Shown piece after piece: positions 2,325 through 43,437 of a stretch of DNA of 43,598 bases (its first letter is position 1; every line of letters begins with the position of its first letter). Position numbers and translations under genes: made by a program. This DNA is from Bacteroidetes bacterium HGW-Bacteroidetes-13. Lineage in GTDB: Bacteria; Bacteroidota; Bacteroidia; Flavobacteriales; Flavobacteriaceae. The stretch lies in NCBI GenBank assembly GCA_002841025.1, contig PHDQ01000003.1, positions 1-43,598 of the forward strand. The letters are read 5' to 3'. The notes under the pieces are model-generated. The model saw nothing but the letters and a program-made list of their open reading frames with translations, made no database searches and was not told where the DNA came from.

Positions 2325-3695
2325 TCATTTCTCAAAAGTCAGCCGTTCTTGCTCGACAGACTCGGATATTCTTTTCGGAATAATCGGATTTATCAGTGTT
2401 TTACGCGGTTTAGTTTTGAGAAAAGGAAACAATTCTAAATTTTCCTTCATTTGATCTTCCGGGTTGGTGTATCGGGTTGTACCGACCAAAATCTCTCGAT
2501 GCAAATCGTATAATTTTTGCTCCTTTTGGTGGCTTTCAGTTACTTTTTTTTGGATAAAACCATTTTTAAGTTGCTTGATGAAACCACCTTTTCTTTCAAT
2601 TTCTTTAAATAAAAGCAAAGCTTTTTCAGCCAATTGTGTCGTGATGGATTCAATGTAGTATGACCCGTCAGCCGGATTGGAAACAGCGTCAAAAAAACAT
2701 TCGTTTTTCAAAATCAGCAATTGATTTCGCGCGATACGATGCCCGAATTCATTTTCTTTGTGAAACAAAGTGTCGTACGGTAGATTGCAAACCGCATCGG
2801 CAGTACCCAAAACCGCGCTCATACATTCAGTGGTTGTGCGCAACATATTGACGTTGTAGTCATAAATCGTTTTGTTTCTCAAGGATGGAACAGCAAAAAT
2901 GTGACAGGTTTCGGGAAAACCATATTCGTTTGCCAAAGAAGCGTACAAAATACGGAACGCGCGAAGTTTGGCAATTTCAAAAAAATAATTACCCCCTACG
3001 GCAAATTGAATGTTGACGGCAGCACTACACAAATTTGAAAACTGATTGAAATATTCATTGAGATGCGCCATTGCGAAAGCCAATTGCTCAACCCTGTTGG
3101 CTCCGGCTTGTTGATAACTCATCACATCGATGCTCAAGAGTTTTTGGTCAGGATGTGAAGACAGAAGACCTTTTAAATTTTCAAAGTCTTTTGCTTCGTT
3201 TTCAAACCAATTCCCATCGCTCATCAATCGACCGATTGGGTCTAAATTCAAAAAAAAATGTGCTTTTTTAAGTTTAAAAAATTGAATAAGTCTTTCTATA
3301 AAAATCAAATCAAAAAAACTGAATTGACAAAAAACGGTCACCTCTTCAAACGGAAAACCGGAAAATATTATTTCTATGTCAAAAGGTTCATCCGCTTGAA
3401 GGCGAATTGCTGTCGCGCCGTTTTCTATACTTTTCAAGATGTTTTTACGTGCGAGTTTTTCATTTTTCACAAAAAAAGTATCCACTATTTTCCAAGCATC
3501 GGTAGGTTTTGAGAAAGGTGCCTTCGTTTTTTTTTCTTCATCAAAATGGTAAAACGGCTTCACGTGGATACCTTCTAAACTCTCCCACAACATGGTTTGG
3601 TTGTAGTCTGCTCCTTTGAGTTCAAACTGTATTTTTTGTTTCCAAGCTTTGGAAGTAATTTCTGGAAAGTCGGATAGATCTAAGGTCTTACTCAT
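2325..3695 (-). CDS. mutA: Methylmalonyl-CoA mutase small subunit
   Basis: 456-aa ORF with TIM-barrel-like region (VPSLRNKTIYDYNVNMLRTTTECMSAVLGTADAVCNLPYD, NPADGSYYIESIT) and no C-terminal B12-binding domain. Confidence 0.88.
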   Translation of the reverse strand: MSKTLDLSDFPEITSKAWKQKIQFELKGADYNQTMLWESLEGIHVKPFYHFDEEKKTKAPFSKPTDAWKIVDTFFVKNEKLARKNILKSIENGATAIRLQADEPFDIEIIFSGFPFEEVTVFCQFSFFDLIFIERLIQFFKLKKAHFFLNLDPIGRLMSDGNWFENEAKDFENLKGLLSSHPDQKLLSIDVMSYQQAGANRVEQLAFAMAHLNEYFNQFSNLCSAAVNIQFAVGGNYFFEIAKLRAFRILYASLANEYGFPETCHIFAVPSLRNKTIYDYNVNMLRTTTECMSAVLGTADAVCNLPYDTLFHKENEFGHRIARNQLLILKNECFFDAVSNPADGSYYIESITTQLAEKALLLFKEIERKGGFIKQLKNGFIQKKVTESHQKEQKLYDLHREILVGTTRYTNPEDQMKENLELFPFLKTKPRKTLINPIIPKRISESVEQERLTFEK

Positions 3696-35508: not shown

Positions 35509-36537
35509 ATGCAACTGTACAACACCTTAAGCGCAAAAGAAAGGGAAGCACTCATAGCCGAAGCCGGAAAAAAAAGGCTGACTCTTTCTTTTTATCAATA
35601 CGCCAAAATCGAAAATCCGGAAATTTTCAGAAACCATCTGTTTATTACCTGGAATGAATTCGATGTGTTGGGGCGTATTTATGTCGCCAAAGAAGGCATC
35701 AACGCGCAACTTTCTGTTCCCGCCGATTATTTTTCCGCTTTCAAATTGCATCTCGACTGCATCACATTCCTAAAGGATGTACGGCTGAACATTGCCGTAG
35801 AACACGATGATTTTTCGTTCCTCAAACTCAAAGTAAAAGTCCGCGATAAAATTCTCGCCGATGGGCTCAACGATAACACTTTTGATGTGACCAACAAAGG
35901 TATTCACTTAGATGCAATTGCCTTCAACAATCTCATCGAACAACCCGATACCATTTTGGTGGACATGCGCAACCATTACGAAAGCGAAATCGGTCATTTC
36001 AAAAACGCCATCACACCCGATGTTGACACCTTTAGAGACTCGTTAAATCTGATAGAAGAGGATTTAAAAGATTTTAAAAAAAATAAAAATCTGGTCATGT
36101 ATTGCACCGGAGGCATTCGCTGTGAAAAAGCAAGTGCCTACTTCAAACACAAAGGATTTAAACATGTTTACCAATTGGAAGGCGGCATCATCAATTATGT
36201 AAACCAAGTAAAAGAAAAAGGACTTGACAACAAATTTATCGGGAAAAATTTCGTTTTTGACGAACGCCGAGCCGAACGCATTTCAAATGATGTCATCGCA
36301 CACTGCCACCAATGCAAAAATCCGTGCGACACCCATGTCAATTGTGCTAACGAGGCGTGCAATTTGCTCTTTATCCAATGTGAAGATTGTGCTGAAAAGA
36401 TGAATCAATGTTGCTCGGAAACCTGCATGCAAATAGCCGCATTACCCTACGAAGAACAAAAATTGTTACGCAAAGGAAAAGCCAACAGCAACAAAATTTT
36501 CAAAAAAGGACGAAGTGAAGCATTGCGCTACAAATAA
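35509..36537 (+). CDS. trhO: Rhodanese-related tRNA uridine hydroxylase/sulfurtransferase
   Basis: VAKEGINAQLSVP; VMYCTGGIRCEKASAYF; C-terminal Cys-rich CHQCKNPCDTHVNC. Confidence 0.92.
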   Translation: MQLYNTLSAKEREALIAEAGKKRLTLSFYQYAKIENPEIFRNHLFITWNEFDVLGRIYVAKEGINAQLSVPADYFSAFKLHLDCITFLKDVRLNIAVEHDDFSFLKLKVKVRDKILADGLNDNTFDVTNKGIHLDAIAFNNLIEQPDTILVDMRNHYESEIGHFKNAITPDVDTFRDSLNLIEEDLKDFKKNKNLVMYCTGGIRCEKASAYFKHKGFKHVYQLEGGIINYVNQVKEKGLDNKFIGKNFVFDERRAERISNDVIAHCHQCKNPCDTHVNCANEACNLLFIQCEDCAEKMNQCCSETCMQIAALPYEEQKLLRKGKANSNKIFKKGRSEALRYK

Positions 36538-40756: not shown

Positions 40757-41998
40757 ATGACACCTTCAGGAAAAATAGAATTGATGGCTCCGGCAGGAAA
40801 TTTTGAATCCCTGCAAGCCGCTTTAGACAACGGTGCCGATTCAGTTTATTTTGGCGTCGAACAACTCAACATGCGGGCGCGTTCTACCATCAATTTCACC
40901 TTGAAGGATTTGCCGGAAATAGCCAAACGTTGCCAAGACAAAAACGTCCGAACCTATCTGACATTGAACACCATCATCTACGACCACGATCTGTCGGTAG
41001 TAAAAACCCTCTTGACCAAAGCCAAGGCAAACAACATCAGTGCAGTCATTGCTTCCGACCAAGCCGTTATTTCGACCGCCCGAAGCCTGGGGCTTGAAGT
41101 ACATATTTCTACACAACTGAATGTGACCAATATAGAAACCGTTAAGTTTTACAGCCTCTTTGCAGATACCATCGTTCTTTCTCGCGAATTAAGTTTGCGT
41201 CAGGTCAAAAATATTACCGAACAAATCGCCAAAGAACAAATCAAAGGTCCCAATGGAAATCTGATAGAAATAGAAATTTTTGGACACGGTGCCTTGTGTA
41301 TGGCCGTTTCCGGGAAATGTTATTTAAGCCTGCACTCGCATAATTCTTCTGCCAATAGAGGTGCGTGCAAACAAAATTGCCGGAAAAAATATACGGTCAT
41401 CGATCAAGAAAGTGGTTTTGAAATCGAAATTGACAACGAATACATGATGTCACCCAAAGATCTATGCACCATTGACTTTCTCGACCAAGTAATCGATTCA
41501 GGCATCAAAGTATTGAAACTTGAAGGTCGCGGTCGCGCACCGGAATACGTGGCAACCGTCACCAAAACCTATCGCAACGCAATAGAAGCCTACTACGAAG
41601 GTACTTATACCAAAGATAAAATCGGCGTATGGATGGATGATTTGTCCACCGTTTACAACCGGGGCTTTTGGGCCGGTTATTACCTCGGTCAAAAATTGGG
41701 TGAGTGGAGTGATAATCCGGGCTCAAATGCTACCCAAAAGAAAGTTTATATCGGTAAAGGCATGCACTATTTCCCTAAATCGGGCGTGGCAGAATTCAAA
41801 ATCGAAGCATACGATCTGACGAAAGGTGACAAAATTCTCATCACCGGCCCAAGCACGGGCGCACAAGAATTGGTTGTTGAAGACATGTTTGTCAACGACG
41901 TCGATGCCGAAAAAGCTTCAAAAGGAGATAGTTGTACTTTCAAAACACCCTTCCGAATTCGCCTTTCCGACAAACTTTATAAAATTGTAGCGGGTTAA
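40757..41998 (+). CDS. Peptidase U32 family protein
   Basis: 413 aa; ELMAPAGNFESLQAALDNGADSVYFGV; EIFGHGALCMAVSGKCYLS; NRGACKQNCRKKY; KLEGRGRAPEYV. Confidence 0.93.
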   Translation: MTPSGKIELMAPAGNFESLQAALDNGADSVYFGVEQLNMRARSTINFTLKDLPEIAKRCQDKNVRTYLTLNTIIYDHDLSVVKTLLTKAKANNISAVIASDQAVISTARSLGLEVHISTQLNVTNIETVKFYSLFADTIVLSRELSLRQVKNITEQIAKEQIKGPNGNLIEIEIFGHGALCMAVSGKCYLSLHSHNSSANRGACKQNCRKKYTVIDQESGFEIEIDNEYMMSPKDLCTIDFLDQVIDSGIKVLKLEGRGRAPEYVATVTKTYRNAIEAYYEGTYTKDKIGVWMDDLSTVYNRGFWAGYYLGQKLGEWSDNPGSNATQKKVYIGKGMHYFPKSGVAEFKIEAYDLTKGDKILITGPSTGAQELVVEDMFVNDVDAEKASKGDSCTFKTPFRIRLSDKLYKIVAG

Positions 41999-42003
41999 AA
42001 CAA

Positions 42004-42044
42004 TTTGTCTTTAAATATTTTGTACATATATTTGTACATATATT
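42004..42044 (+). promoter_or_regulatory. YefM-YoeB-type operator with embedded Bacteroidota promoter
   Basis: TTTG (42004-42007)-N19-TATATTTG (42027-42034); perfect tandem 12-mers TGTACATATATT at 42021-42032 and 42033-42044; TGTACA cores 12 bp centre-to-centre. Confidence 0.85.
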
Positions 42045-42064: not shown

Positions 42065-42319
42065 ATGATAACAACAACTTTATCGGATTTCAGGAAAGAC
42101 ATCAAGACATATTTTAAAAAAATCACGGAAAATTTCGAAACATTAATTATAAACAGGGGGAAAGACAGTGGGGTGGTAATTATCTCTTTGGATGAATACA
42201 ATTCGCTAATGGCAACCCGGCATGAGCTTTCATCTGCCTCGAATGAAAAAAGATTGGATGCTGCCATTGAAAAATTGAAAAACAAACAAACATTTGAAAA
42301 AATACTTTTGGAAGAATGA
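42065..42319 (+). CDS. yefM: Type II antitoxin, YefM/Phd family
   Basis: 84 aa; MITTTLSDFRKDIKTYFKKI...LIINRGKDSGVVIISLDEYNSLMATRHEL aligns by eye to YefM; ATGA overlap with the toxin ORF. Confidence 0.92.
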   Translation: MITTTLSDFRKDIKTYFKKITENFETLIINRGKDSGVVIISLDEYNSLMATRHELSSASNEKRLDAAIEKLKNKQTFEKILLEE

Positions 42320-42831
42320 AGTATATTTTTGTTGATGAATCTTGGGAAGACTATCTGTATTGGCAAAAAACGGATAAAAAAATGCTTCGTAAAATCAATG
42401 ATTTGTTACACGATATTTCCCGCACACCATTTTCCGAAATTGGCAAACCCGAACCTTTAAAATTCAAATACAGAGGTTTTTGGTCAAGAAGAATTGACAA
42501 TGAGCACCGGTTGATTTATCAAGTCCGGGAAGATGAAATATTGGTTGCTAAATGCAGATTTCATTACGATTTGATTTTTCTAAAATCCCTTTCACTTCAA
42601 ATGGTCATCATCACCCTTCAAAGAGAAAAATGCATCGGCTGCAACTACTGCGTCGAATTGGATTCGGCACATTTTCGCATGTCAAAAAAAGATGGAAAAT
42701 CGGTTCTTTTAAAGTCAATCAACAACAAAGGGTTTCACACGCTCAAATCGCCTGACCACAACATATTGGAAAAATCTGAATTAGCTGCCAAAGCTTGTCC
42801 GGTGAAAATTATCACTTTGAAAGAAATATAA
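42316..42831 (+). CDS. YoeB toxin (aa 1-84) fused in frame to a single [4Fe-4S] ferredoxin domain (aa 96-171)
   Basis: ESWEDYLYWQKTDKK...GKPEPLKFKYRGFWSRRIDNEHRLIYQV...CRFHY = YoeB; linker DLIFLKSLSLQ; MVIITLQREKCIGCNYCVEL...KACPVKIITLKEI = ferredoxin; uninterrupted frame. Confidence 0.88.
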   Translation: MKYIFVDESWEDYLYWQKTDKKMLRKINDLLHDISRTPFSEIGKPEPLKFKYRGFWSRRIDNEHRLIYQVREDEILVAKCRFHYDLIFLKSLSLQMVIITLQREKCIGCNYCVELDSAHFRMSKKDGKSVLLKSINNKGFHTLKSPDHNILEKSELAAKACPVKIITLKEI

Positions 42832-42883: not shown

Positions 42884-43294
42884 CTATATGAATTGCTCTT
42901 TCAGCAAGGCAATTACTTGATTTTCTGTCATTGAATCTGCCGTATCGACAAATTTTACTTTACCTGACATTGCTTTTATTTTTGATATTGCCTTATGCAA
43001 CCCGATCTTTGCCTCCGCCGGTCCCAAAATAACAATAGAATCTGCCTCTTTGAGAGCTGCAATCACTTTTTCATAATAGTTCTTAAGCTGTTGCGTGAGT
43101 TTTTTTTCTTTGACCTTTTCAAAATTTGAAAATTGATTACCCATCCGTGTGTATTGCTTGCCTTCTCCATCCACTCGGATTCGGCTTTCAAAATTGGATT
43201 CAATGGATTTAATCGTTTCCTTCCCATTGTTTAAAATGACAAGTGTTGCTTTTTTACTGTCAATCCAAACGCCTACTTGTGTTAGATTTTTCAT
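42884..43294 (-). CDS. Pelota/eRF1 domain-2-like 'translational machinery' type protein
   Basis: ~136 aa; GVWIDSKKATLVIL, YYEKVIAALKEADSIVILGPAEAKIGLHKAI, KFVDTADSMTENQVIALLKEQF; start MKNLTQVG. Confidence 0.55.
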   Translation of the reverse strand: MKNLTQVGVWIDSKKATLVILNNGKETIKSIESNFESRIRVDGEGKQYTRMGNQFSNFEKVKEKKLTQQLKNYYEKVIAALKEADSIVILGPAEAKIGLHKAISKIKAMSGKVKFVDTADSMTENQVIALLKEQFI

Positions 43295-43437
43295 GGTATT
43301 GATTTTAGTTTTATAAAAAATTAGCCTATTTCTTACAGAAGACACATAAGAAAATAATCACATAAATTTAGTGATTTTTGCGTAAAAAAGCTAATAAAAA
43401 AGACCCTTTTTGAATTACAATAATCATTATTTTTTTG

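Follow-up and report, generated by a model that had tools for sequence, protein, structure and literature searches.

Locus organization

The window analyzed here, that is, the whole 43,598-nt stretch of contig PHDQ01000003.1 from Bacteroidetes bacterium HGW-Bacteroidetes-13 (GCA_002841025.1), comes from a draft genome that is 82% complete and comprises 358 contigs. The locus under study consists of a trhP-like gene, a yefM-yoeB toxin-antitoxin (TA) module and a ferredoxin gene (fer), the toxin and ferredoxin genes being joined in one open frame:

40757..41998, + strand: trhP-like gene, peptidase U32 family (Pfam PF01136), 413 aa; ancestral upstream neighbour of fer
42003..42040, + strand: promoter/operator of the TA module; two TGTACA cores (42021 and 42033) overlap a TATATTTG box, which we take to be −7-like by the Bacteroidota consensus
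42065..42319, + strand: yefM antitoxin gene, 84 aa, overlapping the yoeB start (Pfam PhdYeFM_antitox, 2.5e-15)
42316..42831, + strand: fused YoeB-ferredoxin ORF, 171 codons, single open frame
42316..42570, + strand: toxin-coding part (yoeB), codons 1-85; keeps the catalytic residues, carries G41E and K32H
42571..42573, + strand: TTG, codon 86, site of the lost yoeB stop (TAG in G002, TAA in L062)
42574..42600, + strand: former yoeB-fer spacer of 27 nt (26 nt in G002, 15 nt in L062), now part of an in-frame linker
42601..42831, + strand: ferredoxin with one [4Fe-4S] cluster, 76 aa from an internal ATG (Pfam Fer4_15); ortholog of the stand-alone fer after trhP

An earlier note on this DNA had described a single uninterrupted 171-codon ORF that encodes a complete YoeB in residues 1-84 and a [4Fe-4S] ferredoxin from Met96, and our analysis bears out each of these points. 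Residues 5-84 match the full Pfam YoeB_toxin profile (4.6e-37), the fused ORF scores well above the cut-off of the NCBIfam Txe/YoeB equivalog TIGR02116, and the top PDB match is E. coli YoeB (2a6q, E 2e-33), with residues 1-84 aligned end to end to residues 1-84. E46, R59, R65, H83 and Y84 are all present at the E. coli numbers, as the note had stated, and K49, S57 and E63 are retained as well. The full-length profile match and the catalytic residues place this part, by sequence, in the YoeB/Txe family. Toxins of this family cleave mRNA in a ribosome-dependent manner, are neutralised by YefM and end near Tyr84, so that their C-terminal tail can reach the mRNA; the window protein, however, runs on for 87 more residues. 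Residues 99-167 match Pfam Fer4_15 (1.3e-9), and four cysteines in a CxxCxxC...CP arrangement (positions 11, 14, 17 and 66 of the product starting at Met96) provide the ligands expected of a single-cluster [4Fe-4S] ferredoxin (Fer4_15/Fer4_13). In an AlphaFold model of the fusion, the YoeB part is confident (87-95 in blocks of 10 residues) and residues 85-171 score <50, the underlying alignment consisting of YoeB rows with none of its own for the ferredoxin part.

The module has its cognate antitoxin gene upstream, preceded by the paired TGTACA operator, a feature that nearly every homologous yefM gene shares. The two cores are 12 bp apart in the window, the geometry reported for YefM operators (PMC7730913). 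On the other side of the fused ORF, at 42884-43300 on the − strand, a 138-aa protein is encoded that has no Pfam match above the cut-off and no NCBIfam match.

Insertion between trhP and fer

TrhP is a prephenate-dependent tRNA U34 hydroxylase, and TrhO is a rhodanese-type tRNA hydroxylase. The best NCBIfam match of the U32 protein in the window is TrhP, although the score is below that model's cut-off, and the protein contains a CX6CX15CX3C motif (C181, C188, C204, C208), a motif that in U32 proteins is a proposed binding site for a [4Fe-4S] cluster (PMC6747719). In most of the flavobacterial relatives compared, trhP and fer adjoin directly, with no TA module between them; the usual junction in these empty sites is TAATG, a stop/start overlap of 1 nt, and the ortholog of the window ferredoxin directly follows trhP. 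This gene neighbourhood suggests that the ferredoxin is probably the redox partner of TrhP; the TrhP paper makes no mention of a ferredoxin (PMC6599085), and our literature search returned no paper that links the two.

In a sister species of the same genus (G002, contig PFUR01000055) and in a third species (L062), yefM-yoeB lies exactly between trhP and fer, and yoeB and fer are separate genes. The antitoxin-toxin pairs of the window, G002, L062 and a Flavobacterium locus (L082) form one clade (support 97/88), and a single ancestral acquisition is therefore the simplest history for the four loci. In L082, the related yefM-yoeB (2441-3255) is located right after the trhO stop codon, that is, in the same position relative to a U32-like C-terminal domain as the other three modules occupy after trhP. 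This placement possibly reflects a preferred insertion point or, otherwise, a later deletion of trhP and fer. Some flavobacterial TrhO proteins (L062 84-1469; L082; L164; L165) have an apparent C-terminal extension that is ~50% identical to the U32/TrhP C-terminus and has no Pfam coverage; the window TrhO (35509-36537) is without it.

Three candidate relatives of the fusion were rejected. L164 and L060, which gave matches spanning both parts with stops inside, are both empty sites with no TA relic, and in G018 (L021), a long open frame reported near fer resolved into a normal trhP gene with a normal fer behind it.

Loss of the toxin stop codon

The YoeB subgroup to which the window protein belongs normally ends with Asp85, and codon 86 is the exact position of the stop in relatives: TAG in G002 and TAA in L062, compared with TTG in the window. 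A linker does follow the toxin, as previously reported, but it is shorter than the proposed 11 residues DLIFLKSLSLQ after Tyr84, because Asp85 is the last residue of the toxin and the linker proper spans codons 86-95 (LIFLKSLSLQ). The remaining YoeB genes whose end could be read, 65 in all, without exception have their stop 0-4 codons past Tyr84, and 0 of them are fused. Taken with the empty sites, the stops of the sister and third species substantiate one of the two readings that the note had offered, namely, stop loss after insertion of a TA module upstream of a ferredoxin gene.

The spacers of the window (27 nt) and of G002 (26 nt) can be aligned with one 1-nt gap, and it is this indel that puts fer in frame in the window. 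Among random spacers of 10-40 nt with matching composition, ~23% are both open and in frame, so read-on into fer after stop loss needs no special cause.

Given that the assembly is a fragmented draft and that the lost stop is a single substitution, an assembly or sequencing error could hide a real gene with a stop at codon 86. We regard such an error as highly improbable because the window also differs from G002 by the separate 1-nt indel in the spacer, the checked neighbour genes (penicillin-binding protein, trhP, yefM and trhO) have intact frames, and a miscalled base would be unlikely to fall on the stop codon itself.

The note had also called for a search of relatives for the same architecture, and this yielded no other instance among the matches listed. 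No full-length YoeB-ferredoxin fusion was detected among the matches listed, best first, from 400 genomes of the family, and no second fusion among those from 300 genomes of the genus of L062, likewise best first. None was present in the best 80 loci from genome contigs, and the plasmid collection gave distant YoeB matches only. Hence, among the matches listed, no other species has this architecture, as a conserved fusion family would. A literature search found no paper describing a YoeB-ferredoxin fusion; its one hit was a transposon-sequencing study in which each term appears once or twice.

Divergence of the toxin and the ferredoxin

In G002, yoeB (G002:C53, L077 3001-3252) is interrupted by TGA at codon 71, with TAG still at codon 86, and carries K21R, K49R, S57F and H83Y, each at a site where ≥93% of homologues agree (figures from an ungapped comparison, the internal stop disturbing the alignment). 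G002 is also without the TGTACA operator pair, whereas its yefM stays open. Judged by its sequence, the G002 yoeB is a pseudogene. Another YoeB gene with an internal stop codon was seen in L079 (Cyclobacteriaceae, Bacteroidota).

The toxin part of the window is better preserved than the G002 copy but shows two changes at near-invariant positions. One is G41E, where 62 of 63 homologues have Gly; the other is K32H, where 59 of 63 have Lys and the rest Arg or Gln. On the window branch, 6 of 84 YoeB residues changed, these two included, vs. 12 of 572 in trhP, yefM and fer combined (Fisher P = 0.019, a weak and uncorrected result). The dN/dS of yoeB is still low, 0.08-0.10. The ferredoxin, which is 91% identical to that of G002, is under purifying selection, with a dN/dS of 0.04 between the two.

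These observations bear on the other reading of the note, a redox-linked toxin chimera, and lend it no support. Selection for a working YoeB-ferredoxin chimera, whose [4Fe-4S] cluster would control or localise the mRNA interferase through its redox or oxygen state, would be in keeping with the retention of key residues in both domains, the intact antitoxin and operator, and the open frame of the spacer. Nevertheless, there is no second instance among the matches listed (~700 genomes) or in the 65 YoeB ends, the sister yoeB has decayed to a pseudogene, near-invariant sites are altered in the window toxin, and the linker derives from a non-coding spacer, of a kind that would be open and in frame by chance in ~23% of cases. 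We therefore consider selection for such a chimera very unlikely. Slimmer still is the chance that the fused protein is made and used as a ribosome-dependent RNase, its C-terminal active-site tail tethered to a [4Fe-4S] domain that, through the state of its cluster, gates mRNA cleavage or the binding of the antitoxin.

Somewhat less remote, albeit still unlikely, is a modest adaptive value of the stop loss, which might restore the translational coupling of fer that was lost through the TA insertion and/or disarm the toxin. The TAATG overlap of trhP and fer in the empty sites, as opposed to the spacers of 15-26 nt that the insertion created in L062 and G002, is compatible with restored coupling, and the disabling changes in the G002 yoeB are compatible with disarming. 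However, the ferredoxin gene has been retained without coupling in both G002 and L062, so coupling is dispensable.

Discussion

The explanation that we favour, and hold to be quite probable, is a lineage-specific loss of the stop codon in a decaying TA module, an accident rather than a purpose-built redox-controlled toxin. The insertion, the orthology of the genes, the stop loss, the frame and the decay of the G002 copy can all be read from the compared sequences. Under this scenario, a yefM-yoeB module that brought along an autoregulated promoter would have inserted once, in an ancestor, at the junction of the trhP stop and the fer start. The toxin would then have come under relaxed constraint within the genus, leaving a truncated yoeB without an operator in G002; in the window, the yoeB stop, TAG in the sister, would have changed to TTG, and a spacer that is a multiple of three and contains no stops would have yielded the 171-codon ORF.

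The ferredoxin would still be made, from ATG 42601 and/or within the fusion; its probable client is the U32 hydroxylase TrhP. The proposal that translation may still start at ATG 42601 holds up well: in nearly all relatives, the stand-alone ferredoxin begins at the residue aligned with this Met, so a separate ferredoxin is likely still produced.

In ribosome-bound YoeB, the C-terminal tail is displaced by ~3 A toward the mRNA, which is contacted by His83 and Tyr84 (PMC3814384). Because the tail must swing onto the A-site mRNA, it would be expected to be impaired by 86 extra residues, so that the stop-loss mutation may have been neutral or mildly disarming; a folded domain about ten residues past the tail would probably interfere, and toxicity may accordingly have been lost. 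YoeB with a C-terminal GST tag has been cloned in one study (PMC7256200), so activity may survive a C-terminal fusion, and interference is best regarded as a prediction. The fusion itself most likely serves no specific purpose. Some observations in the window count against decay: the YoeB catalytic residues, antitoxin and operator pair remain intact, and yoeB still has a low dN/dS. Its toxin is therefore not an old pseudogene.

The locus thus appears to be a natural experiment, in which an inserted TA module became entangled with a housekeeping operon and then decayed differently in sister species, by a nonsense mutation and operator loss in G002 and by stop loss in the window. It also cautions against equating one long ORF with a functional domain fusion. 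Should the fusion protein work after all, it would represent an mRNA interferase gated by redox state, and we know of no precedent for one.

Compared with the YefM-YoeB (Axe-Txe) type II TA systems, represented by E. coli YoeB (PDB 2A6Q; ribosome-bound, 4V8X), the window has the same complete YoeB domain with E46, R59, R65, H83 and Y84, the overlapping antitoxin gene and the TGTACA pair with 12-bp spacing, but differs in the loss of the stop after Asp85, the additional 86 residues including a whole ferredoxin, and the G41E and K32H changes. The stand-alone Flavobacteriaceae ferredoxins encoded after trhP (Pfam Fer4_15), which in other genomes are ~50-79% identical to that of the window, share its four Cys ligands and an ATG at the same residue, whereas the window ferredoxin forms the C-terminal part of a YoeB ORF and is separated from trhP by the TA module. 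The G002 locus has the same gene order, trhP-yefM-yoeB-fer, and the same insertion point; unlike the window, it combines a yoeB broken by TGA at codon 71 with TAG at codon 86, no fusion and a lost operator.
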